Positions 366 to 33,396 of a stretch of 52,413 nucleotides of DNA are shown piece by piece. Under the pieces are notes generated by a model. That model was not told the DNA's origin, searched no databases, and worked only from the letters and a program-made list of their open reading frames with translations. Source of the stretch: a virus; the IMG/VR virus record IMGVR_UViG_3300047472_000261, positions 1 to 52,413 of that record; one strand, written 5' to 3'. Within the stretch, counting starts at the first letter, position 1. Each line of letters opens with the position of its first letter. Made by a program: the position numbers and the translations under genes.

Positions 366-1067
366 GTCAGCAATTCCTAGTTCTACTGACCAGCGATCCG
401 AACCGTTTGCGCCACGCACGTGGTAAGCGTGCCGTCCGAGCGCCACCGTCAAATCGTTGAGCGTGAGCGTGACCTCAAGGCAACGGGCGTCGCCCGTTGC
501 GACACTCACGGCGACGGTTCCGGTCAGCGTTACGCCAGCATTTTGGTTCTCAGGGTGTTGGACGAATGTGATCGACCAATCCCACTGCGAGAGATCGAGT
601 GGCCATGATGCAGACCGGTTGCGCGTCACCAGGAACGGCCGACCCCCACCCCCGTATGTGTCGCCATTGATGATCGTGCGGGTCATGTACTGCTGAGCGC
701 CGCCTGACGTGGGCGCATCGCTCTGCAGCATGGCGATGATCTCGTCGATCTTGGCCTCTTGCTCTGGCGTGAGGGCACCAACGCCACCACTCACCGCCGC
801 CTGAACCTCGCGCACATCCATCACCGGATCATCCGCGATGAGCGCGGCGCCAGCTCGAAGATGCAGTGAGTACTCGGCTGTGTCGTCGGGCAGGGTGCCG
901 CGGAAATTTCCGTTGCCTTTGACGACAGCGGCGATCGCGTACGTGGCAATGTTCGCTGCGTTGTAGTCAACGAACGCCGTGCCGTTCCACCACTGACCAG
1001 CCGCGTTGCGCGCGGTGAACACATGCGTGCCGGTGGCCGCTGAGTATGCCGGTGCGGTGATGCTCAT
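351..1067 (-). CDS. Putative tail appendage/fibre-associated protein (238 aa)
   Basis: I do not recognise a named family. The ATG at 1067 overlaps the stop of the upstream gene (ATGA), which decides the start over the longer open frame. The N-terminal third has a repeating beta-like pattern seen in phage appendage proteins, ending near DVREV. A short linker with a helical EQEAKIDEIIAML segment follows. The C-terminal 110 residues are beta-rich with an immunoglobulin-like look. It is the last gene of the lysis/appendage operon and the terminase follows. Probably a virion accessory or host-recognition protein; inference from place and composition. Confidence 0.5.
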   Translation of the reverse strand: MSITAPAYSAATGTHVFTARNAAGQWWNGTAFVDYNAANIATYAIAAVVKGNGNFRGTLPDDTAEYSLHLRAGAALIADDPVMDVREVQAAVSGGVGALTPEQEAKIDEIIAMLQSDAPTSGGAQQYMTRTIINGDTYGGGGRPFLVTRNRSASWPLDLSQWDWSITFVQHPENQNAGVTLTGTVAVSVATGDARCLEVTLTLNDLTVALGRHAYHVRGANGSDRWSVELGIADVLAG

Positions 1068-23368: not shown

Positions 23369-24435
23369 TGCCCGACCTCCGCCGGCGCGGCCGGCATTCC
23401 ATCCCATGTGCGACCATCGAGTACTCGGCCGGCGGCGTGCTTGCCGACCGGATATGCGAGCGACGTGTCCTCGAACTGGTGAGCGAAGCCGAAGCTGTCA
23501 CGGTCCATCAGTTTCAACCAAGCCTGTTCGGCGGCGTGATTTAGCACACCGTCATCCGGAGAAGCCGGATCGTTCCAGATCTGCGTCTCGTGGGCGTATT
23601 CGCCGTGCTGCTTGAATAAGAAGGGAACGCCAGCTTCGGCGCACTGATAGCGAATTTCTCTCGCCCATTCCGGGTGCATGGCTCTCGCCTTTGACCCGCT
23701 CTCGCCACCGACGATGACCCAATTGATGCCACGGTCGCATCGGTCGTCGTGATGATGATGCGGCTCGCGCGGGCAATCTGGCGTTCCGACACCGCGATGC
23801 TTTCCGTTGCAGCCGCGCTGTCCGCCAATCCAGAGCGTCCCGCCAAGGCTCCTATTCAGATCAACCGGCCCCAGCAACGGCTCGCACGACAGGAACAGAA
23901 CCTTCGCGGGGATCTTCAACAGCTCAGGAATGCGTTTGTCGGCAGCGTCCTGATCTTCGACGGACGTGCCGATCCACACGTGCTTGCAGTCAGCGAGCCA
24001 TGATGAGCACAGGCGGCCCGTCGCGTCGGAGATCCCGCGGTCGACGTATTGTGGTCGCTTCGTCAGCAGCAACCAATTGAGGTTGCGAGTCTGCTCGATC
24101 AAACCGCAAAGCCGCCGACGCGCATCCTGGACGAGCGGCCAGCACGCCTCGGGCATCGTGTCAGGACCTTCGAACACGTCAGCGAGCGACGCACAGAAGA
24201 CGTTGTGCCGCTCGCCGGCGGCCTTCGCGGCCGCGTTCCATTTGAGCGGCTGACGCCAATAGCTTTCGGCGGCGATCACACGCGTGCCGCGCGGCCCCCA
24301 AATGCCGAGCGACTTCGGATTGCGGCCGCTGAGCGTTTCCGCGTAGCAGTGCGCGCAGCCGGCGCTGACCTTAGTGCACCCGCGCCACGGGTTGAACGTG
24401 TGTCGAGTCCATTCGATCGCGGAGTTTTCAGCCAT
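23365..24435 (-). CDS. DUF5131 family protein (phage Gp37/Gp68-like) (356 aa)
   Basis: The N-terminus IEWTRHTFNPWRGCTKVSAG followed by CAHCYAE is the signature of this family, whose CxxxxxxCxxC-like cysteines suggest a radical-SAM or metal site. Also characteristic are LLLTKRPQ, HVWIGTSVEDQDAADKRI and LFLSCEPLLGPVDL, and the later WVIVGGESGSKARAMHPEWA. Found in many phages and mobile elements; the reaction is not known to me. It follows the 90-aa gene with an overlap of eight bases. Confidence 0.8.
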   Translation of the reverse strand: MAENSAIEWTRHTFNPWRGCTKVSAGCAHCYAETLSGRNPKSLGIWGPRGTRVIAAESYWRQPLKWNAAAKAAGERHNVFCASLADVFEGPDTMPEACWPLVQDARRRLCGLIEQTRNLNWLLLTKRPQYVDRGISDATGRLCSSWLADCKHVWIGTSVEDQDAADKRIPELLKIPAKVLFLSCEPLLGPVDLNRSLGGTLWIGGQRGCNGKHRGVGTPDCPREPHHHHDDRCDRGINWVIVGGESGSKARAMHPEWAREIRYQCAEAGVPFLFKQHGEYAHETQIWNDPASPDDGVLNHAAEQAWLKLMDRDSFGFAHQFEDTSLAYPVGKHAAGRVLDGRTWDGMPAAPAEVGQ

Positions 24436-24700
24436 GCTTCACCTCGATCAATCCCAACCGCGCCTCAAGCCATTCAACCTCTGCAGCAACCGCCCGCTCC
24501 CTCAGTACGAACGGCCCGAGCTTCGGACCGCCGACCGGTGCCAGGTCGGCCCACCACGAGCCGAGTCCATCCGGCTCCACGTGCGACGCTCGCGCGATGC
24601 GAGAGATGCCGCCGACTGCCGGCAGGAACGGCTGCAGCTCGTCGGCGTAGACGAACTGGATCCGTCCGTCATTGCTTATGTTCAGCACGTGTGCCGGCAT
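24428..24700 (-). CDS. Conserved small phage protein (90 aa)
   Basis: The ATG at 24700 begins MPAHVLNISNDGRIQFVY; the longer frame upstream overlaps DUF2997 out of frame. The sequence ISRIARASHVEPDGLGSWWA with LAPVGGPKLGPF and AVAAEVEWLEAR belongs to a short protein frequently seen beside DUF2997 genes in phages (recall, not a search). Function unknown. Confidence 0.55.
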   Translation of the reverse strand: MPAHVLNISNDGRIQFVYADELQPFLPAVGGISRIARASHVEPDGLGSWWADLAPVGGPKLGPFVLRERAVAAEVEWLEARLGLIEVKHG

Positions 24701-24869
24701 CTGCGTTCGCCTGTTGGAAATACTCAGTCTTCTTCGTGTCAGCCGTGACGGTGCCAAGGGCGTTTTCGATGCCGCGGGTGAGAGCCTGGCATCCCGAGCC
24801 GCGGACTCCGTTGGCTTCGACCGTCACGTCGCCCTTGGCACTGATCTCGATGTTCACTACGGATCTCAT
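24669..24869 (-). CDS. DUF2997 protein (66 aa)
   Basis: VVNIEISAKGDVTVEANGVR, then GSGCQALTRGIENALGTV and a TEYFQ tail, match DUF2997: a small two-strand/helix protein with one conserved Cys after GxxC. In cyanobacteria and other bacteria DUF2997 is a neighbour of Ycf35/DUF1257 and Ycf46 AAA proteins. The same three are present here in one operon, which strengthens the identification. Confidence 0.75.
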   Translation of the reverse strand: MRSVVNIEISAKGDVTVEANGVRGSGCQALTRGIENALGTVTADTKKTEYFQQANADAGTRAEHKQ

Positions 24870-24981
24870 TGGCCCTCGTTTTTTCAGTTGCTGCTGTCAC
24901 CCAAACCATCGCCGCCAAACACACGGACGGCACGACGAAGATTGCCGCGCAGGCGTCCGGCCATGTCAGCCATGCGAGCAT
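24739..24981 (-). CDS. Small single-membrane-span peptide (up to 80 aa)
   Basis: An ATG at 24981, three codons after the DUF1257 stop, starts MLAWLTWPDACAAIFVVPSV and continues as one membrane segment to about residue 31. The frame then enters the DUF2997 gene in another frame, where it is less protein-like. I think at least the first 40 codons are real, as short membrane peptides of this kind are common in phages. Confidence 0.4.
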   Translation of the reverse strand: MLAWLTWPDACAAIFVVPSVCLAAMVWVTAATEKTRANEIRSEHRDQCQGRRDGRSQRSPRLGMPGSHPRHRKRPWHRHG

Positions 24982-24984
24982 CAG

Positions 24985-25443
24985 TCACCCCTTCATCGCG
25001 ATCATCTTGATGGAGCCATCGGCGTTGCGTGTCGACTGCACGGTGAAGCCCTGAGCCATCGCCTGTCGCTTCGCCACCACGTATGCGTATTCGCGCTTCA
25101 CGTTGCAGCAGTCGTTGCCGGCGAGCTTCTGCAGGCCCCGCCCGCCCGCCCAGAAATCCCACATCAGCGTGTAGCCAGGACGGCCGTCACGTCGGCCAAA
25201 GACGCCGATTTCGTAGGGCTTGTGGTCCTTGTCGCTGTGGTCGCCGGGGATGCGGATGGCGTGATCGCACTTGCCGAGATCCTCTTTCACGAATCCCGCA
25301 GGCACCGGGTAGTCACCGACATGGGTGCCGTACCACTCGTACGTTTGCTGGCCGCGAACAAGCTCGAGGCCGATGGCGTTGCACGCCTCAGCCAGGGCGT
25401 CGAGATCCTTCACTTCCAGATCCACCGTCGCTACGTGACTCAT
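24985..25443 (-). CDS. DUF1257 (Ycf35-like) protein (152 aa)
   Basis: The start SHVATVDLEVKDLDALAEAC is the DUF1257/Ycf35 signature (MSHFTxIxxxIxDLxxLxxAL). Later strands IRIPGDHSDKDHKPYEIGVF and WDFWAGGRGLQKLAGNDCCN fit the family, whose members are about 110-150 residues. The function of Ycf35 is not established; its constant neighbours are Ycf46-like AAA+ proteins and DUF2997, as seen here. Confidence 0.8.
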   Translation of the reverse strand: MSHVATVDLEVKDLDALAEACNAIGLELVRGQQTYEWYGTHVGDYPVPAGFVKEDLGKCDHAIRIPGDHSDKDHKPYEIGVFGRRDGRPGYTLMWDFWAGGRGLQKLAGNDCCNVKREYAYVVAKRQAMAQGFTVQSTRNADGSIKMIAMKG

Positions 25444-25630
25444 CGCCCACCAATCCCTTCGAATTCCTCAACGCCCTCACCGACAATGCCACCTGAATCA
25501 ACCTCGCGCCGAGCGCGAACTCAAGGGCCGTCATGTGGGTTTTCATGAGTCGACTCAACAGATGGCTCTCGATCAGCAGCGAGATGAATAGGATCGCCTC
25601 CGCCAAAAACGGCCACGCTCTCAGCCACAT
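25388..25630 (-). CDS. Small hydrophobic protein (80 aa)
   Basis: ATG at 25630, inside the end of the 214-aa gene. The sequence begins MWLRAWPFLAEAILFISLLI, a membrane or amphipathic segment, followed by a helix. Third-position GC is clearly higher in this frame than in the overlapping C-terminal tail of the upstream gene, which supports it. It overlaps the DUF1257 start by 56 bp. Confidence 0.5.
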   Translation of the reverse strand: MWLRAWPFLAEAILFISLLIESHLLSRLMKTHMTALEFALGARLIQVALSVRALRNSKGLVGDESRSDGGSGSEGSRRPG

Positions 25631-26165
25631 CCGGCCGATGCGGAAGCACTAACGCTGCCAGTACATTTGAGATGGCACCAATGGCCCCGAGCTGCAGCGC
25701 GGTCGCGAGTTCGCCTTTGAGCGCATCGGTGTCGCCTTTCGGATCGGGTTCGTTCCACCGCCGGAACTCCTGCAGCAGCACGCCGCGGACGTGGCCGAAG
25801 GTCCAGGCTGTTGCCTCGTGATCGTCGCTGTCCTCGTCCGAGCCGCAGTTGATGCTCATCGCCGACTGCACGGGCGCGGAGGGCGCTACGCCGCCGACGT
25901 GCTGCCATTCTTTCGGCAGAGTGCCGGTTGCCACGAATTCCTGCAGCAATGGAATCAACGTCGCCGCCATGCCGCGCGTCAGGTGCATGCGGCTGCTCGT
26001 CGCGCCGCTGCGGCTCTTCTCGACGCCGAGCCAGAGTCGGCAATCCTCGGTCGTCGATCCTTCTTGTATCGCACAACTCGAACCGTACGCGTCGGTGAAC
26101 GTGCCGCGCCTGCAGCCGGCGGACGTCTCTGAAAACGTGATGATGGTGGTCGGGTCTGGGTTCAC
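25521..26165 (-). CDS. Hypothetical phage protein (214 aa)
   Basis: GTG start at 26165 (GTGA overlap with the DUF3150-like gene). The N-terminal half (FTDAYGSSCAIQEGSTTED, LWLGVE, SRMHLTRGMAATLIPLLQEF) matches a short conserved phage protein of unknown role. The C-terminal half is different, and its last 35 residues appear to be an out-of-frame overlap with the next gene. Part of the Ycf46-like operon. Confidence 0.5.
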   Translation of the reverse strand: MNPDPTTIITFSETSAGCRRGTFTDAYGSSCAIQEGSTTEDCRLWLGVEKSRSGATSSRMHLTRGMAATLIPLLQEFVATGTLPKEWQHVGGVAPSAPVQSAMSINCGSDEDSDDHEATAWTFGHVRGVLLQEFRRWNEPDPKGDTDALKGELATALQLGAIGAISNVLAALVLPHRPDVAESVAVFGGGDPIHLAADREPSVESTHENPHDGP

Positions 26166-27211
26166 GCTGCGACGCCTCCTTCGGATTCGTTTTTCTTGGT
26201 GTCCGTGGCGGCCGGCTCGTCGTCTTCCAGCTTCATCTGCCGCTTGGGCAGCGCGACCATGAGCCCGCCGATTTCTTTCTCGATCGCGGCGAGCTGGTCG
26301 CTGACCTTCGATCGAAGATCGAGGTTGCCGCGCAGCTCATCCGGCGTGATGCCCTTCACCACGTTCTGCGCCGCGTCGATCACCTTCTGCAGCTCGCCGC
26401 TGCTGCCGACGTCGAGCGATCGGAACTCTTCGAAGAACGCATTGAGCCGAGTGACCGACGTGTCCTGAAACACTTTGGGCTTGCCGTCGTCGGTGCCCTT
26501 CAGGCGGTCGGCCAAGTGCCCGACCAGCTCGTGGAACTTCTCGACGAAGGCCTGCTCTGTCAGCCGCACGGCCTCTTCGAACCGGCCGCGGATGCGTTCG
26601 ACTTCCTGTTCGTAGAGCTGTGGGTGAAGGTTCTTCAGGTACGCCGGCGGCTCGATCGATGGGAAGTCCCAGTACAGATCGAACTCGACGTCAATGCGGT
26701 CGGGATAATCGCCGGCGTTGTAGAGCGTCCCCAGTTTCTCTTGGGCGCGCGTGCGAAGTTCTTCGTACTTCGATTGAAGCTGCTCGCGTGCCTCGACCAG
26801 CAACGCCTTAATGTCCTTCAATTGGTTTACGAACATGTCGACGTTCTCGCGGCGCAGGAGCCTGACGCCGGGCTCCGGGTAAGGGACCGTCAATGCCTTC
26901 CACAGGTGGCCGGCCCGGCCCATGAGCTTCGACACGGCACGCCATGCCGGATCCCGCGTGTCGAGCACGCGCTTGGCGGCGCTGATGACGCTGCTGTCCG
27001 CGCCGAACTCGTCCGCGGCGATGCGGATCTGTGCTGGCGTGAACGTCCGCCGCACGCCGAACCGCGAGCGCCGCACGCGGCACGCGACCGTCTGGGCGCG
27101 GAGCTTCTCGGCGAACTCGCGCTTCTCGGCCTTGGTCTGAGCGGCCGGCGATGCCGATGCCGCCGGAGCCGTTGTTGGCGTTGTGGGGTCTGTCGCTTCG
27201 CTCATGATCAC
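26162..27211 (-). CDS. DUF3150-like protein, partner of the AAA+ ATPase (349 aa)
   Basis: A mostly helical protein. RRSRFGVRRTFTPAQIRI at about 46-63 introduces the core; AKRVLDTRDPAWRAVSKLMG, GVRLLRRENVDMF, GDYPDRIDVEFDLYWDFP, DTSVTRLNAFFEEFRSLDV and ELQKVIDAAQNVVKGITPDE follow in the order I recall for DUF3150 proteins. In bacteria these accompany MoxR/Ycf46-type ATPases. Here it directly follows the AAA+ gene (GTGA overlap), so a chaperone-substrate or adaptor relation is likely. Family call is from memory. Confidence 0.55.
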   Translation of the reverse strand: MIMSEATDPTTPTTAPAASASPAAQTKAEKREFAEKLRAQTVACRVRRSRFGVRRTFTPAQIRIAADEFGADSSVISAAKRVLDTRDPAWRAVSKLMGRAGHLWKALTVPYPEPGVRLLRRENVDMFVNQLKDIKALLVEAREQLQSKYEELRTRAQEKLGTLYNAGDYPDRIDVEFDLYWDFPSIEPPAYLKNLHPQLYEQEVERIRGRFEEAVRLTEQAFVEKFHELVGHLADRLKGTDDGKPKVFQDTSVTRLNAFFEEFRSLDVGSSGELQKVIDAAQNVVKGITPDELRGNLDLRSKVSDQLAAIEKEIGGLMVALPKRQMKLEDDEPAATDTKKNESEGGVAA

Positions 27212-28749
27212 GTCTCCAAGACGCTGATGCGCCGACTCGGTTTGCCGTTCGTGCCGTTGTGTGCTGACTCGGCCGTGTCTGTTCGGGAATAAACACCGGG
27301 TTTGCTGGCCGACAGGAATCGACCTTCAGCCGCCTTGCGCAGCCGCTCGAGCTGCTCGCTCGCCGACTTGCTCACCGGGACGACATAGCGGCCGGCCTCG
27401 TCGACTGTGCACCCCAGCCGCCAGGCGATGTCACAGCACTGCCGGATCTCGGCGCCGGTCCAACCTTCGTCAGGCACCTTGCCCTTCTTCAGGCTGTAGT
27501 TGCGTAAGTACAGATCCCATATCGAGGCGCGCTCGTCTGCGTCGGGCAGGTCGAAAAAGAACGTGCCAAGCGTGAACCGCCGGCGAAGTTCGGGCGGGAG
27601 GTCTGCGATCGCGTTGCATGTGGCGATCCAGAGCGTGCGGCCGTTGCTCACGGCCGTGATGACTTTCAACGCGTTGCGGAGGTTTTGCTCACTCTGGCCG
27701 ACGAGCGAGCCCTTCATGCCGCCCAGGTCGAGCGAGATCGTGGGCACACCCGCTTCGCTGCCGGTCGCCTTCGCCACCATGCTCTTCGCCGAGCCCGGTG
27801 GCCCCACGAAGATGCACCCGGCGGCTGATTGGTCCTGCATGTAGCTCAGCAACTGGCCGAGCTGATCCTGCGAGACGCCGCTGGAATCGCCACCGCCGCC
27901 GGAGCCGGCCATGAACTTCTCGATTTCGTCGATGAAGACGATCGCGTTCGGACGTGTCTTGCCGCCGAGGATCCGCGAGAGGAACGACTTGATGACTTCG
28001 ACGCCGCCGATGTCAGAGAACTTCACCGGCTCGCGCTGAACCTTCAGGCCCGGCGTCTGCTCGATCTGCTTTCGCTTCCGTTCCCACAACGCGCCAAGAT
28101 CGATGCCGGACCGCTTCAGTGACATCGCCACTGTTTGTTCGGCCTGGAATGCGGGCAATCCCTGAACCGCTTCGACCGCGAGTGCGATGCCAGCGTCGTC
28201 GATCTTCAGATCGACCTGGTCGTGAGACTCGCGCACGATCGTCGCGAGACGGTCGGCTTCCGGCAGCGGCTCGTCGAGTGACACGACGTCGCCGGCAAGC
28301 TCCGGAGGGAGTTGGCCCGCTGCGCTCAGCAACACCAGCATTCGGCCGTTCGCTTTGAACAGGTCGCGCAGATTCCAGATGGCTTGGATGACGGATGGGT
28401 CGGTCATCAAGCGGTCGGCCATCGACACGAACAGGATCGCGTCTTTCGGGAGGCGTTTCGCAGTCCTGAAAAGCTCGATCGGATTGCCTTGGGTCTGGTC
28501 GAACGTTCCGAGGAGCGCCGCGACAGCCATCTCTGCCGGCGTCGCTTCGTCCTTTGCTTTCGCCGCCAACTCGGCGGGCCGATTGACAGCGCGAAGACCG
28601 TCCACGATGTCCCACGCGATGATCACGCCGCCGGCCAGGGCTGCCGCCATCGTGGTGATCGTCTCCGCCGGATCCGGCGTGTTGATCGACACGATCGGCA
28701 CGCTGACGCGGCGGGCGGCTTTCAGTTGTTGGAGGAGATCGTTGGTCAT
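27208..28749 (-). CDS. Ycf46-like AAA+ ATPase with permuted Walker B/Walker A order (513 aa)
   Basis: Residues 1-240 match the degenerate N-terminal ATPase-like domain of Ycf46 (DAILFVSMADRLMTDPSVIQ, LLSAAGQLPPEL). FSDIGG at 244-249 starts the AAA+ core. Then, against the usual order, the Walker B block IVFIDEIEKF (270-279) and its helix GVSQDQLGQLLSYMQD come before Walker A GPPGSAKS (316-323). KGSLVGQSEQNLRNAL, sensor 1 ATCN (376-379) and RRRF (389-392) follow as normal. All key residues are present. The ATG at 28749 opens the family-like sequence. First gene of the DUF3150/DUF1257/DUF2997 operon. Confidence 0.85.
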   Translation of the reverse strand: MTNDLLQQLKAARRVSVPIVSINTPDPAETITTMAAALAGGVIIAWDIVDGLRAVNRPAELAAKAKDEATPAEMAVAALLGTFDQTQGNPIELFRTAKRLPKDAILFVSMADRLMTDPSVIQAIWNLRDLFKANGRMLVLLSAAGQLPPELAGDVVSLDEPLPEADRLATIVRESHDQVDLKIDDAGIALAVEAVQGLPAFQAEQTVAMSLKRSGIDLGALWERKRKQIEQTPGLKVQREPVKFSDIGGVEVIKSFLSRILGGKTRPNAIVFIDEIEKFMAGSGGGGDSSGVSQDQLGQLLSYMQDQSAAGCIFVGPPGSAKSMVAKATGSEAGVPTISLDLGGMKGSLVGQSEQNLRNALKVITAVSNGRTLWIATCNAIADLPPELRRRFTLGTFFFDLPDADERASIWDLYLRNYSLKKGKVPDEGWTGAEIRQCCDIAWRLGCTVDEAGRYVVPVSKSASEQLERLRKAAEGRFLSASKPGVYSRTDTAESAHNGTNGKPSRRISVLET

Positions 28750-30043: not shown

Positions 30044-30553
30044 ATGAAGCGTGTGCTAACCATTACTGCAGTCCTTTTCATGCTCGGCGCCGCGCCGGCT
30101 ACCCAGCCCGCGTCGCGACCCGGTGAACAATATCCAGCGCTTCAAAAAAGGCTTGCTGAGCTTCAGGCCGAACTCGATGAGGCGCGTGCCATCAACCAAA
30201 AGTTGGCGGGGGAAAACGCCGATCTCCGCGAGAAGCTGAAGGGCTTAGAACCGAAGCCTCCGGCTGACGCGAAGGAACCAAGATCAACGATCACGACACC
30301 CGAAGAACTGAAGGCGGCCCTTGTTTCGCGCATTCATGTTGGCCAATCACGTGCTGAAGTGGAATCGGTGTTTGGGAAGCCGAGCGATGAGACGCGCGAA
30401 GGCGAATTTGTGGTGCGTGAGTACTCGCGATACTGGAAGGGTCATACTAACGCTCAAACCGGAAAACTTGAGGGTTACGGCCGATTCACAGTGAAGTGCT
30501 GGTATCGGGAAAATCAGCTCGCCGATGTGCGCAGCTACACAGCGGATTACTAA
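30044..30553 (+). CDS. Exported protein with coiled coil and BamE/SmpA-like domain (169 aa)
   Basis: A signal peptide (KRVLTITAVLFMLGAAPATQ) ends near an ATQPA sequence that is frequent in exported proteins of Phycisphaerae. A coiled coil follows at about 30-68 (LQKRLAELQAELDEARAINQ). The C-terminal part (IHVGQSRAEVESVFGKPSDE) matches the G-x-s-xxEV-xxxxGxP pattern of BamE/OmlA-type domains. Likely an envelope protein made in the lysogen. It overlaps the opposite RecT gene by four bases. Confidence 0.6.
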   Translation: MKRVLTITAVLFMLGAAPATQPASRPGEQYPALQKRLAELQAELDEARAINQKLAGENADLREKLKGLEPKPPADAKEPRSTITTPEELKAALVSRIHVGQSRAEVESVFGKPSDETREGEFVVREYSRYWKGHTNAQTGKLEGYGRFTVKCWYRENQLADVRSYTADY

Positions 30554-31818
30554 CGCCCGCCGCCCCAACGTCGCTTGGCCTCTTCGTACAACTGAACCTT
30601 GAACGCCTCGCGGTTGTCGTCTTCCGCGCCCGCCCATTTGTCACGCATTTCTCGGATCAGCTCTTCGCGCTTCGCGCGCCGCACGAGCGACGACACGCGC
30701 AGAATCGTCTGATGCAGATCGGCATCTGATGACGGTTCCTCATCGTCGCCGCCGGCGTCGCTGTCGCGCTCCATCAAGGCCGTGTGGGATGTTGCCGGCG
30801 GATCCGAAAGCTCCTCGAGCTGCTCGTCCAGCCGTTCCTCGCGCACGAACTTCTTGCCGCGCCGCTCGATCGTGGCCGCCTGGCCGAGCGAAGGCACGTC
30901 ACTTCGCATCGCCTCGATAAGTGCGAGTCCGTCGAGCTGGGTGAATGCTTTAGCGAGCGCCAGGCTCTCACTGCATTTCGCGAGCATGTGATCGTCCATC
31001 TTGTCCCAGAATGGATCGAGCACCTCGCGGCCGTCGATGACGACCGTCTGTACGAATGAGTCCCAACGTGCGACGCCCCAGAACGGTTCGCTCTTATCGG
31101 TGCGCTTCACAGACACCTGAGCAAACATCGGCCGGCCCTTGGACGTCGGCCACACGTTGACGAAGACGCCATCCTCACCAGCCCATTCCGGCCGGCTGAT
31201 GCTGTCGAGCACGCCGCTGCGGTGCGCGACACGTCGCATAGCCTTGATCGTCGTGCCGAGTTCGATCGCGATCCGCTTGCCGTTCTTGACGGACTTGCGC
31301 GCGTAGCAGTCGCCGAGCAGGGGATTCAGGCCGGCCGCTTCGTAGAGCACGCGATACTGTTCGAACTGTAGATCGGTCAGATCCCAGCAGTGGACGTGCC
31401 GGATGACGGCCGTCTGGCGGTCGCTTGGTGAGGATTCCAGCCAGGGCACGAGCGAGAGGGCGGTTTCGTTCCCCTCATGCGGCAGGCCCATCATTTCAGC
31501 GAGAGTCGCGTGGCCTCCCTGCCGCGCGAACTCCGCCACGAACTTCGGCATCACGTCTGCGAAGCTCTCGCAGAACGACTCGATCGATGTGGGCAAGCGC
31601 TCCTCTGGATGTCTGCCGAGCCAGGCATGGCCGACCTCATGGGCGAGGGTGCCGAATGCACTTGGGAGCGACTGACCGCGAAGGATCTGGATCTCCGCTT
31701 GGGAGTAGATGATGCATCCGACGGCATCGGGGTCGTTGTCGGCGATGACATCGAGGACTCGCACGTTGAACGGAACGCCGTTGATTTCGAACTGCAGGTC
31801 GGACGGGGTGTCGGACAT
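30550..31818 (-). CDS. Zinc metallopeptidase-RecT/Bet fusion protein (422 aa)
   Basis: Two domains in one frame. Residues about 1-120: zincin core with AFGTLAHEVGHAWLG (HEVGH 60-64) and glutamates in SIESFCESFADVM (80, 84) that could be the third ligand, as in ImmA/IrrE-type peptidases. Residues about 140-305: RecT/Redbeta-like annealing core: LYEAAGLNPLLGDCYARKSV, TIKAMRRVAHRSGVL, FAQVSVKR and FWDKMDDHMLAKCSESLALA, the family's MLaKCAEalALRKAF motif. An acidic linker and a basic C-terminal helix follow. It promotes strand annealing in phage recombination; the peptidase role is unknown. Confidence 0.75.
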   Translation of the reverse strand: MSDTPSDLQFEINGVPFNVRVLDVIADNDPDAVGCIIYSQAEIQILRGQSLPSAFGTLAHEVGHAWLGRHPEERLPTSIESFCESFADVMPKFVAEFARQGGHATLAEMMGLPHEGNETALSLVPWLESSPSDRQTAVIRHVHCWDLTDLQFEQYRVLYEAAGLNPLLGDCYARKSVKNGKRIAIELGTTIKAMRRVAHRSGVLDSISRPEWAGEDGVFVNVWPTSKGRPMFAQVSVKRTDKSEPFWGVARWDSFVQTVVIDGREVLDPFWDKMDDHMLAKCSESLALAKAFTQLDGLALIEAMRSDVPSLGQAATIERRGKKFVREERLDEQLEELSDPPATSHTALMERDSDAGGDDEEPSSDADLHQTILRVSSLVRRAKREELIREMRDKWAGAEDDNREAFKVQLYEEAKRRWGGGR

Positions 31819-32036: not shown

Positions 32037-32852
32037 ATGGCACTGACGATCAATATTCGGGTGGAAGGCAGCGTCTCAGTTGCGGACCTTCGCACGCTCG
32101 TAGATTCGTTTGCAGAGCTGATTGAAGCTCTGACCGCTGAAACCGTTGCGCGCGACGAAACCAAGCCCACTGTCCTATGGCTAGTCGACGCCATGCAGGG
32201 CGGTAGCGCCGAGATCACCACGCGAGGCGTTAGCGGCGACAACCGTGCCGCAGATGCCACCATTGAAACCGTCGTGGCGCTATACGACCAAGTCGCTGCG
32301 GACGCCGAGGGTGGGGCGATTGAGAGATACTCCGGCGCTATCCGATACGCGCTGGGGAAGATGACGAGCATTCTGAAGCCTTCGACACCTTCGCTGAAAA
32401 TGTGGGCGCGTGAGAGACCTCGTGAGATCGTTGCCTCTCTCGAGCCGGATGTGGAGGGTGACCAATGGGCCGCGGAAGCGCCGCCCTTGGTGTTGCAGCC
32501 CAGGACAAGATCCTCTGTCCGCGGAAAGATCGTGACACTCGATCAGAAGCGGGGCCTATATTTCACGCTTCAAGAAGCGCACACCCGGCGCAACATTCGA
32601 TGCTATCCGGACGGCCGCGACAAAGACTCCCTCGGCAGGTATTGGTCGAGTGGTCAGTACGTCACGGTCGAAGGTACTTACGTCAGGTATGGGCAACATC
32701 CGACGCTGACAGACATCACAGACATCGTTGAGCACCCGATTCTAGATCGCGATGCGTGGCGACAAGCAGTCGGCGCTGCGCCGCCGTTGAAAGACGGTCT
32801 CAAGATCACGTCCGCCGAAGCCGTCAGGAGGACACGTGATGGCGAAGGCTGA
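32037..32852 (+). CDS. OB-fold-like protein upstream of a PIN nuclease (271 aa)
   Basis: The N-terminal half is helical (LRTLVDSFAELIEAL, SGAIRYALGKMTSILK). The C-terminal part (RSSVRGKIVTLDQKRGLYFT, GQYVTVEGTYVRYG, LTDITDIVEH) has five short strands typical of an OB fold, a nucleic-acid-binding unit. The next gene, a PIN nuclease, starts 14 bases before this one ends. The pair may act as a toxin/antitoxin-type or RNA-processing module. Lower GC than the phage core suggests acquisition. Confidence 0.55.
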   Translation: MALTINIRVEGSVSVADLRTLVDSFAELIEALTAETVARDETKPTVLWLVDAMQGGSAEITTRGVSGDNRAADATIETVVALYDQVAADAEGGAIERYSGAIRYALGKMTSILKPSTPSLKMWARERPREIVASLEPDVEGDQWAAEAPPLVLQPRTRSSVRGKIVTLDQKRGLYFTLQEAHTRRNIRCYPDGRDKDSLGRYWSSGQYVTVEGTYVRYGQHPTLTDITDIVEHPILDRDAWRQAVGAAPPLKDGLKITSAEAVRRTRDGEG

Positions 32853-33396
32853 AGTTCCACTCGAAAGGTACTATCTGGATGCCTGTGTGCTGCTGGATCT
32901 CATTGAGCATCCTGCGCACGTGGAGCCGGCCAAAACGATCGTCGCTCTATTTGAGGATGCCGCGGCCGGCAGATTTGAGCTGGTCACGTCGGTGTTAAGC
33001 ATTGTCGAAGTCCTCTACGCCAAAGAAGAAAAGGACCGACGCCAACTTGATCCAGCGATCGAAGAGAAGATTCGGCGCCTTTGGCATCCCGGTTCATCGC
33101 CTGTGCGCATCGTGGAGGCGCACGAGCTCGTAGTGAAAGACGCCATGCGTTTGCTCCGAGATGGAATTGTTCACGGCTGGTCGAAAACCGGCGCTATCGA
33201 TGCGATCCATTTAGCAACCGCAAGACGTGAGCGCGCCACCGAGTTTTTCACGACCGAAGACGCAATGAACAAGTGGGCCGAAGTGATCGGGGTGAAGGTC
33301 TGCGCGCCGCATTGGTCGCCGGCGGCTTCTTCTGAACAGGGCGAGCTAATGTTTCCTCCGGTATCGCCACCGCCGGTGCTTCCAACGGGCAGCTGA
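32839..33396 (+). CDS. PIN-domain nuclease (185 aa)
   Basis: ATG at 32839 (or the GTG three bases earlier), behind AGGAGG. The four acidic PIN residues are visible: YYLDACVLL (Asp), VTSVLSIVEVL (Glu), GAIDAIHLATA (Asp) and FFTTEDAMN (Asp). It is like a VapC-type RNase, but longer at the C-terminus. It overlaps the OB-fold gene, not a typical small antitoxin. Confidence 0.75.
   Translation: MAKAEVPLERYYLDACVLLDLIEHPAHVEPAKTIVALFEDAAAGRFELVTSVLSIVEVLYAKEEKDRRQLDPAIEEKIRRLWHPGSSPVRIVEAHELVVKDAMRLLRDGIVHGWSKTGAIDAIHLATARRERATEFFTTEDAMNKWAEVIGVKVCAPHWSPAASSEQGELMFPPVSPPPVLPTGS

Follow-up and report, generated by a model that had tools for sequence, protein, structure and literature searches.

The 52,413 bases of the virus record analyzed here (the window), which also carry GpA-type terminase and lambda-family portal genes, encode a 513-residue AAA+ protein in which Walker B lies ahead of Walker A. 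It is very probably a functioning member of the Ycf46-like tandem-AAA ATPases, with its active second AAA domain rearranged. A preliminary description placed the gene correctly at 27208-28749 without naming a strand; the coding strand is minus, since translation of the plus strand meets stops. As described there, the frame is intact, with no internal stop over 513 codons, and the motifs were found at the residues expected: Walker B before Walker A, followed by the KGSLVGQSEQ segment, which comes after GPPGSAKS (residues 316-323), then sensor 1 and RRRF (residues 389-392). All motifs of the AAA+ class (Walker A, the DE of Walker B, the Asn of sensor 1 and the arginine fingers) are present, invariant or nearly so in 91 aligned sequences. 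Their order is B, A, sensor 1 in 145 proteins instead of the A, B, sensor 1 of the class, and the Pfam AAA model matches the protein in pieces only.

Table 1. Features of the rearranged ATPase gene and its operon (window positions; residue numbers for the last two rows)
Feature	Position	Strand	Basis
Permuted AAA+ ATPase, 513 aa, block order N-B-A-C	27208..28749	-	translation without stop; 145 relatives of like order
N domain, aa 1-262, degenerate AAA (D1-like, without P-loop)	27964..28749	-	ordinary relatives 2-232, E 4.5e-34; p97 D1 superposition
B unit, aa 263-309: strand b3, Walker B, helix a3, ahead of P-loop	27823..27963	-	hhalign, ordinary relatives 306-349, E 9e-22
Walker B IVFIDEIEKF, aa 270-279	27913..27942	-	D274, E275, K278 invariant, 91 sequences
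A unit, aa 310-370: strand b1, P-loop, a1, b2, a2	27640..27822	-	hhalign, ordinary relatives 248-307, E 4.5e-24
Walker A GPPGSAKS, aa 316-323, Ala where Gly is usual before Lys	27781..27804	-	G316, G319, K322 invariant
C unit, aa 371-513: b4/sensor 1, arginine fingers, b5, lid with GAE motif	27211..27639	-	hhalign, ordinary relatives 351-467, E 5.7e-29
Sensor 1 ATCN, aa 376-379	27613..27624	-	T377, N379 invariant
Arginine-finger cluster RRR, aa 389-391	27577..27585	-	R391 invariant, R390 at least 90%
DUF3150-family protein, next gene of operon	26162..27211	-	24/33 family members match PF11348
phrog_3849 protein, between DUF3150 and DUF1257	25521..26165	-	phrog_3849 E 2e-19; in few relatives
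DUF1257 (Ycf35-like) protein	24985..25443	-	PF06868 E 1e-4, above cut-off; family HMM E 1.4e-53
Small DUF2997-like protein (bounds are those of the ORF; start not assigned)	24669..24896	-	HMM E 6.6e-20
109-aa conserved protein, no known family	24428..24757	-	46 permuted loci, same strand only; 7 ordinary loci
Model elements, permuted protein	b3 269-273, a3 292-306, b1 310-315, a1 322-333, b2 337-340, a2 352-368, b4 372-378, b5 396-398		AlphaFold
Model elements, ordinary relative L145	b1 249-254, a1 260-271, b2 275-278, a2 290-305, b3 308-312, a3 330-346, b4 351-357, b5 375-379		

Profile-profile comparison of each permuted block with 23 ordinary relatives defined what had moved. The units [b1-P-loop-a1-b2-a2] and [b3-WalkerB-a3] have traded places almost residue-exactly, with nearly no residue lost. 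Median linker lengths read N-5-B-0-A-1-C in the permuted proteins and N-18-A-0-B-1-C in the ordinary ones, from which it follows that the sole change in length is the loss of about 13 residues from the linker normally leading to the P-loop. The term “circularly permuted”, used in the preliminary description, is accordingly inexact: the rearrangement itself is upheld, but the order B, A, sensor 1, arginines results from an exchange of adjacent internal units and not from rotation of the whole domain.

The residues of the ATP site were compared in 91 aligned permuted sequences, which share 39-64% identity with the window protein. D274, E275, K278, G316, G319, K322, T377, N379, and R391 are invariant, while in the wider set of 145 the Walker B of one member reads EEIEK, with Glu for Asp. 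Judged from the sequences, this conservation pattern is that of a working ATP site. The earlier claim that all functional residues are kept is upheld; by way of correction, two features depart from those of most ordinary relatives, namely the loop carrying the arginine fingers and the Gly that precedes Lys in the P-loop. At the latter position (residue 321 in the window protein) the 145 permuted proteins have Ala in 83 cases, Gly in 44, Ser in 13, and Cys in 4, with one not parsed, so that Gly is replaced by Ala, Ser, or Cys in 100 of 145, whereas all 96 ordinary relatives have Gly. Its loss in most permuted members might alter or slow hydrolysis. The arginine-finger loop is shortened in comparison with the common ordinary form, RKGR.

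Both differences lend some weight to an unlikely alternative, in which the swap is real and the protein serves as an ATP-binding scaffold or switch without motor turnover, the rearranged core binding nucleotide and holding the operon partners. However, Glu275, Asn379, and Arg391, which are residues of hydrolysis rather than of binding, are invariant in the 91 sequences, and a short RRF loop is also seen in some of the ordinary sister-group sequences. Ala before the P-loop Lys is found in active AAA proteins of the MoxR/RavA group, hence it need not abolish activity. It is far less probable that residues 270-279 are an inserted look-alike of Walker B, with another acidic residue after the P-loop serving the site. 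The order along the chain is the one feature that speaks for such an insertion. Against it, another acidic pair after the P-loop was looked for and not seen, no hydrophobic-strand-plus-DE motif (hhhhDE) being present between the P-loop and sensor 1 of the window protein; no further B unit lies between A and C in the permuted proteins, D274 and E275 are invariant, and the B unit itself matches the Walker B unit of ordinary proteins (Table 1).

The reversed order is widespread among relatives. A first scan returned six viral proteins with 41-63% identity, in all of which Walker B precedes Walker A, as it does in gp103 of Tunturiibacter phage Tunturi_3 (37% identity) from an annotated phage collection. 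The set was enlarged by scans of viral contigs and GTDB genomes, and order was typed with separate profile HMMs for the four blocks (N, A unit, B unit, and C unit), built twice, from the permuted and from the ordinary alignment, and placed on every long ORF. Among the 241 proteins typed in this way, 145 distinct proteins read N-B-A-C, of which 92 come from viral contigs, 51 from genome loci, and one from an isolated phage, the last being that of the window; the other 96 read N-A-B-C, the order A, B, sensor 1 that the preliminary description had given as ordinary, and in three of these the N match falls into two parts. No intermediate with duplicated A or B blocks occurs among the 243 classified ORFs, in which the sole exceptions to the two orders are two permuted ORFs cut by contig ends.

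It should be noted that both forms are held by one complete chromosome, that of Nitrospira moscoviensis. The permuted profile matches each of its two permuted copies in one piece; the ordinary copy is matched in pieces, A at 3511982-3512158 and then B at 3512162-3512284. Within the phylum of another locus (L108), 2 of the 149 genomes sampled contain the permuted form, which is therefore sparse there. As at least 145 distinct related proteins hold the swapped order with intact catalytic residues, the order is a stable natural rearrangement, neither decay nor error, of a motor fold that ranks among the commonest in biology. That the order reflects faulty assembly or annotation, or a single decaying phage gene, is virtually without probability, and this reading was rejected: nothing was found in its favor, and against it stand the 145 proteins, including that of an isolated phage and the two copies on a complete chromosome, with open frames and invariant active-site residues.

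The predicted fold was analyzed with AlphaFold, using an alignment of 90 permuted sequences with the Tunturi_3 row left out. The model has a mean pLDDT of 92.3 and a pTM of 0.87, and that of the ordinary-order relative L145 has a pLDDT of 85.9. When the two are compared, as the preliminary description had suggested, the secondary-structure elements correspond one by one in the new order (Table 1). The best solved match of the permuted model is p97/Cdc48 D1D2 (7lmz_C, Z 19.2, 394 residues, 4.7 Å), indicating that the N domain resembles a degenerate AAA domain. Superposed on the same solved AAA chains as the ordinary control, the permuted model falls 34-50 aligned residues short of it: 198 (2.6 Å) against 233 (2.4 Å) for 6g2v, 201 (2.7 Å) against 238 (2.3 Å) for 4d82_B, 202 against 249 for 3cf0_A, 209 against 254 for 6oo2_C, and 211 against 255 for 6ap1_B. 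In most rows the rmsd on these shared domains is similar to or slightly above that of the ordinary model. If, as seems to be the case, the aligner follows the order of the sequence, it would drop a moved unit of about 45 residues, and this matches the deficit observed. AlphaFold could, however, be drawn toward the ordinary AAA fold. No sign of a solved permuted homologue was seen among the 60 PDB sequence matches listed of 92, where the best stretch lies on the P-loop block only.

Coevolution was also analyzed. The pairs b3-b4 and b3-b2, whose top ranks are what the sheet order 5-1-4-3-2 predicts, came first among the ten strand pairs in the 145 permuted sequences (about 89 effective), with a weak signal. 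Exactly the four expected strand pairs were on top in the first run, again weakly; in the second, from which the ranks above are taken and which is also weak, three expected pairs were on top, followed by the non-adjacent b4-b5 in fourth place and b1-b4 in fifth. The two runs differ in columns, sequence weights, and gap filters, and the outcome depends on such settings. From the superposition behavior of the model, the conservation, and this weak coevolution we infer that Walker B (270-279) would be located at the nucleotide site. The block mapping, the 145 conserved relatives, and the high-confidence model support a real permutation of strand 3, as had been proposed.

Kinship with Ycf46, also proposed in the preliminary description, is borne out in several ways. 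Residues 5-258 of the N domain match residues 21-287 of phrog_8638, the family of ordinary phage relatives, with a whole-protein E-value of 1e-52 (N block E 4.5e-34), so that a homologous degenerate N-terminal AAA domain is present; the best viral structure matches bear the name Ycf46; and both DUF1257 (Ycf35) and DUF2997, the company expected of a Ycf46-like gene, are encoded in the window. The ordinary A-B order is absent, and for this reason the permuted proteins are placed as a sister group and not filed as ordinary Ycf46. A concatenated tree was calculated from 88 permuted and 55 ordinary sequences with phrog_8638 members as the outgroup; the window protein is not a tip, its ORF having been pooled with locus L007, which the tree does not include. 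All permuted sequences fall into a single clade (split support 1.0; its branch measures 0.99 substitutions per site), which joins 11 ordinary sequences with support of 0.987. These 11 have further traits in common with the permuted clade: several have sensor 1 ATCN together with the short RRF arginine loop (L250, L252, and L263), and several have a DUF3150 neighbor. The swap probably goes back to one ancestral event; in the simplest case the b1-to-a3 stretch would have been duplicated in tandem and the outer copies then lost. No A-B-A-B intermediate backing this route was found among the 243 classified ORFs.

The ATPase gene lies in a conserved operon, and the genes that accompany it were counted at 146 permuted loci; these leave out the window and take in the two ORFs truncated at contig ends. 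The DUF2997-like HMM was seeded from the ORF of locus L104 and grown over the loci. DUF3150 is found at 130 of the 146 loci, DUF1257 at 87, and DUF2997 at 78, always on the strand of the AAA gene; at the 96 ordinary loci the corresponding numbers are 24, 44, and 39. The commonest full order is AAA > DUF1257 > DUF2997 > (109-aa) > DUF3150. A Manganitrophus plasmid has an annotated AAA-DUF1257-DUF2997-DUF3150 set, in which the AAA protein is of ordinary order. Given the common partners DUF3150, DUF1257, and DUF2997, the permuted ATPase appears to replace the ordinary one beside like partners, as a stand-in. In cyanobacteria, DUF2997 and ycf35 (DUF1257) adjoin the ferredoxin gene fed7 (PMC4284462). 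On a Pseudanabaena plasmid (L330), an ordinary Ycf46-like gene is clustered with Hsp70, DUF1257, and DUF2997 genes, a possible hint of a chaperone-like role. At two Nitrospira loci (L120 and L096), the permuted AAA and DUF3150 genes lie upstream of ORFs that by eye resemble a CHC2-type primase, a DNA polymerase sliding clamp, and an integrase, so these are probably mobile islands.

The permuted protein is regarded as a variant of the Ycf46-like remodelling ATPases that is still functional, its ATPase activity and remodelling being presumed. With the b3-WalkerB-a3 unit ahead of the b1-P-loop-a1-b2-a2 unit, the ATP site would be rebuilt from the same residues. Since all connections run from a helix end to the start of a parallel strand at the same sheet edge, the strands can pack again in the order 5-1-4-3-2. 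The subunits would form a ring, probably a hexamer, and ATP would be hydrolyzed at the permuted second AAA domain with arginines from the neighboring subunit. Together with the DUF3150, DUF1257, and DUF2997 proteins, the ring may remodel a protein target, as the ordinary-order relatives would. In classic AAA proteins, the stretch for inter-subunit signalling comes after a3; here, a3 would run straight into b1 and the P-loop and not into sensor 1. On balance we favor the fuller proposal that a single ancient event yielded a fully working AAA+ motor, in which the Walker B/a3 unit is joined to the P-loop instead of sensor 1, the signal path linking neighboring subunits with the ATP site is wired differently, and the relaxed P-loop Gly is an adaptation, making this the first natural rearrangement of motif order within the AAA+ core.

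Comparison with known systems places the protein closest to the ordinary Ycf46-like proteins (phrog_8638 and the bacterial and phage “ycf46”). Common to both are a degenerate N-terminal AAA domain followed by a classic-type AAA domain, the IDEIEK, LVGxSE, PPEL...R, and GAE motifs, and DUF1257 and DUF2997 neighbors, with DUF3150 in some. Only the ordinary proteins have the A-B-C order, a median linker of 18 residues before the P-loop (5 in the permuted), an invariable Gly before the P-loop Lys, and usually RKGR in the arginine-finger loop. p97/Cdc48, Vps4, and spastin have an AAA core fold like that of the permuted model, and the tandem layout is like that of p97, but identity is 16-24%, their strand order is ordinary, and it is in the window protein that the first AAA domain lacks a P-loop. 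Weak similarity to the anti-phage ATPase IetA was observed near the P-loop and lid; membership of that family was rejected, the score of 32.4 bits comparing with an NCBIfam NF042959 cut-off of 510. In circularly permuted GTPases, as far as is known, the G4-G5 part lies ahead of G1-G3 and Walker A still precedes Walker B; the window protein, of the AAA+ class, instead has A and B themselves transposed within the domain. Those GTPases (RbgA/YlqF and RsgA/YjeQ/YloQ) are P-loop NTPases in which a natural rearrangement kept function (PMC6912228).

Permuted P-loop GTPases are thus already known, while the segment swap in the AAA+ core appears to be without precedent, as no earlier report of a permuted AAA or AAA+ protein or of a reversed Walker order was found in the open-licence literature. 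The A-then-B order is treated as fixed in AAA+, and both family models and motif scans assume it; the existence of a family with reversed order means that searches by motif order can miss real ATPases. A large conserved family of this type indicates that the two central units can trade places without loss of the AAA+ fold. It may serve as a natural test of which covalent connections couple ATP hydrolysis to movement, and it bears on the assembly of P-loop folds from strand-helix units.

Three further observations were made in the window. An SOS response associated peptidase (SRAP, HMCES/YedK type) is encoded by the phage at 33421-34101 on the plus strand (Pfam E 4e-62). On the same strand, a PIN-domain protein (32836-33396) directly follows a 271-aa ORF (32037-32852), an arrangement that may represent a toxin-antitoxin-like pair. 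On the minus strand, the gene at 30550-31818 encodes a RecT/Bet-type single-strand annealing protein, in which an N-terminal extension contains HEVGHAWLGRH, resembling a zinc-peptidase motif.
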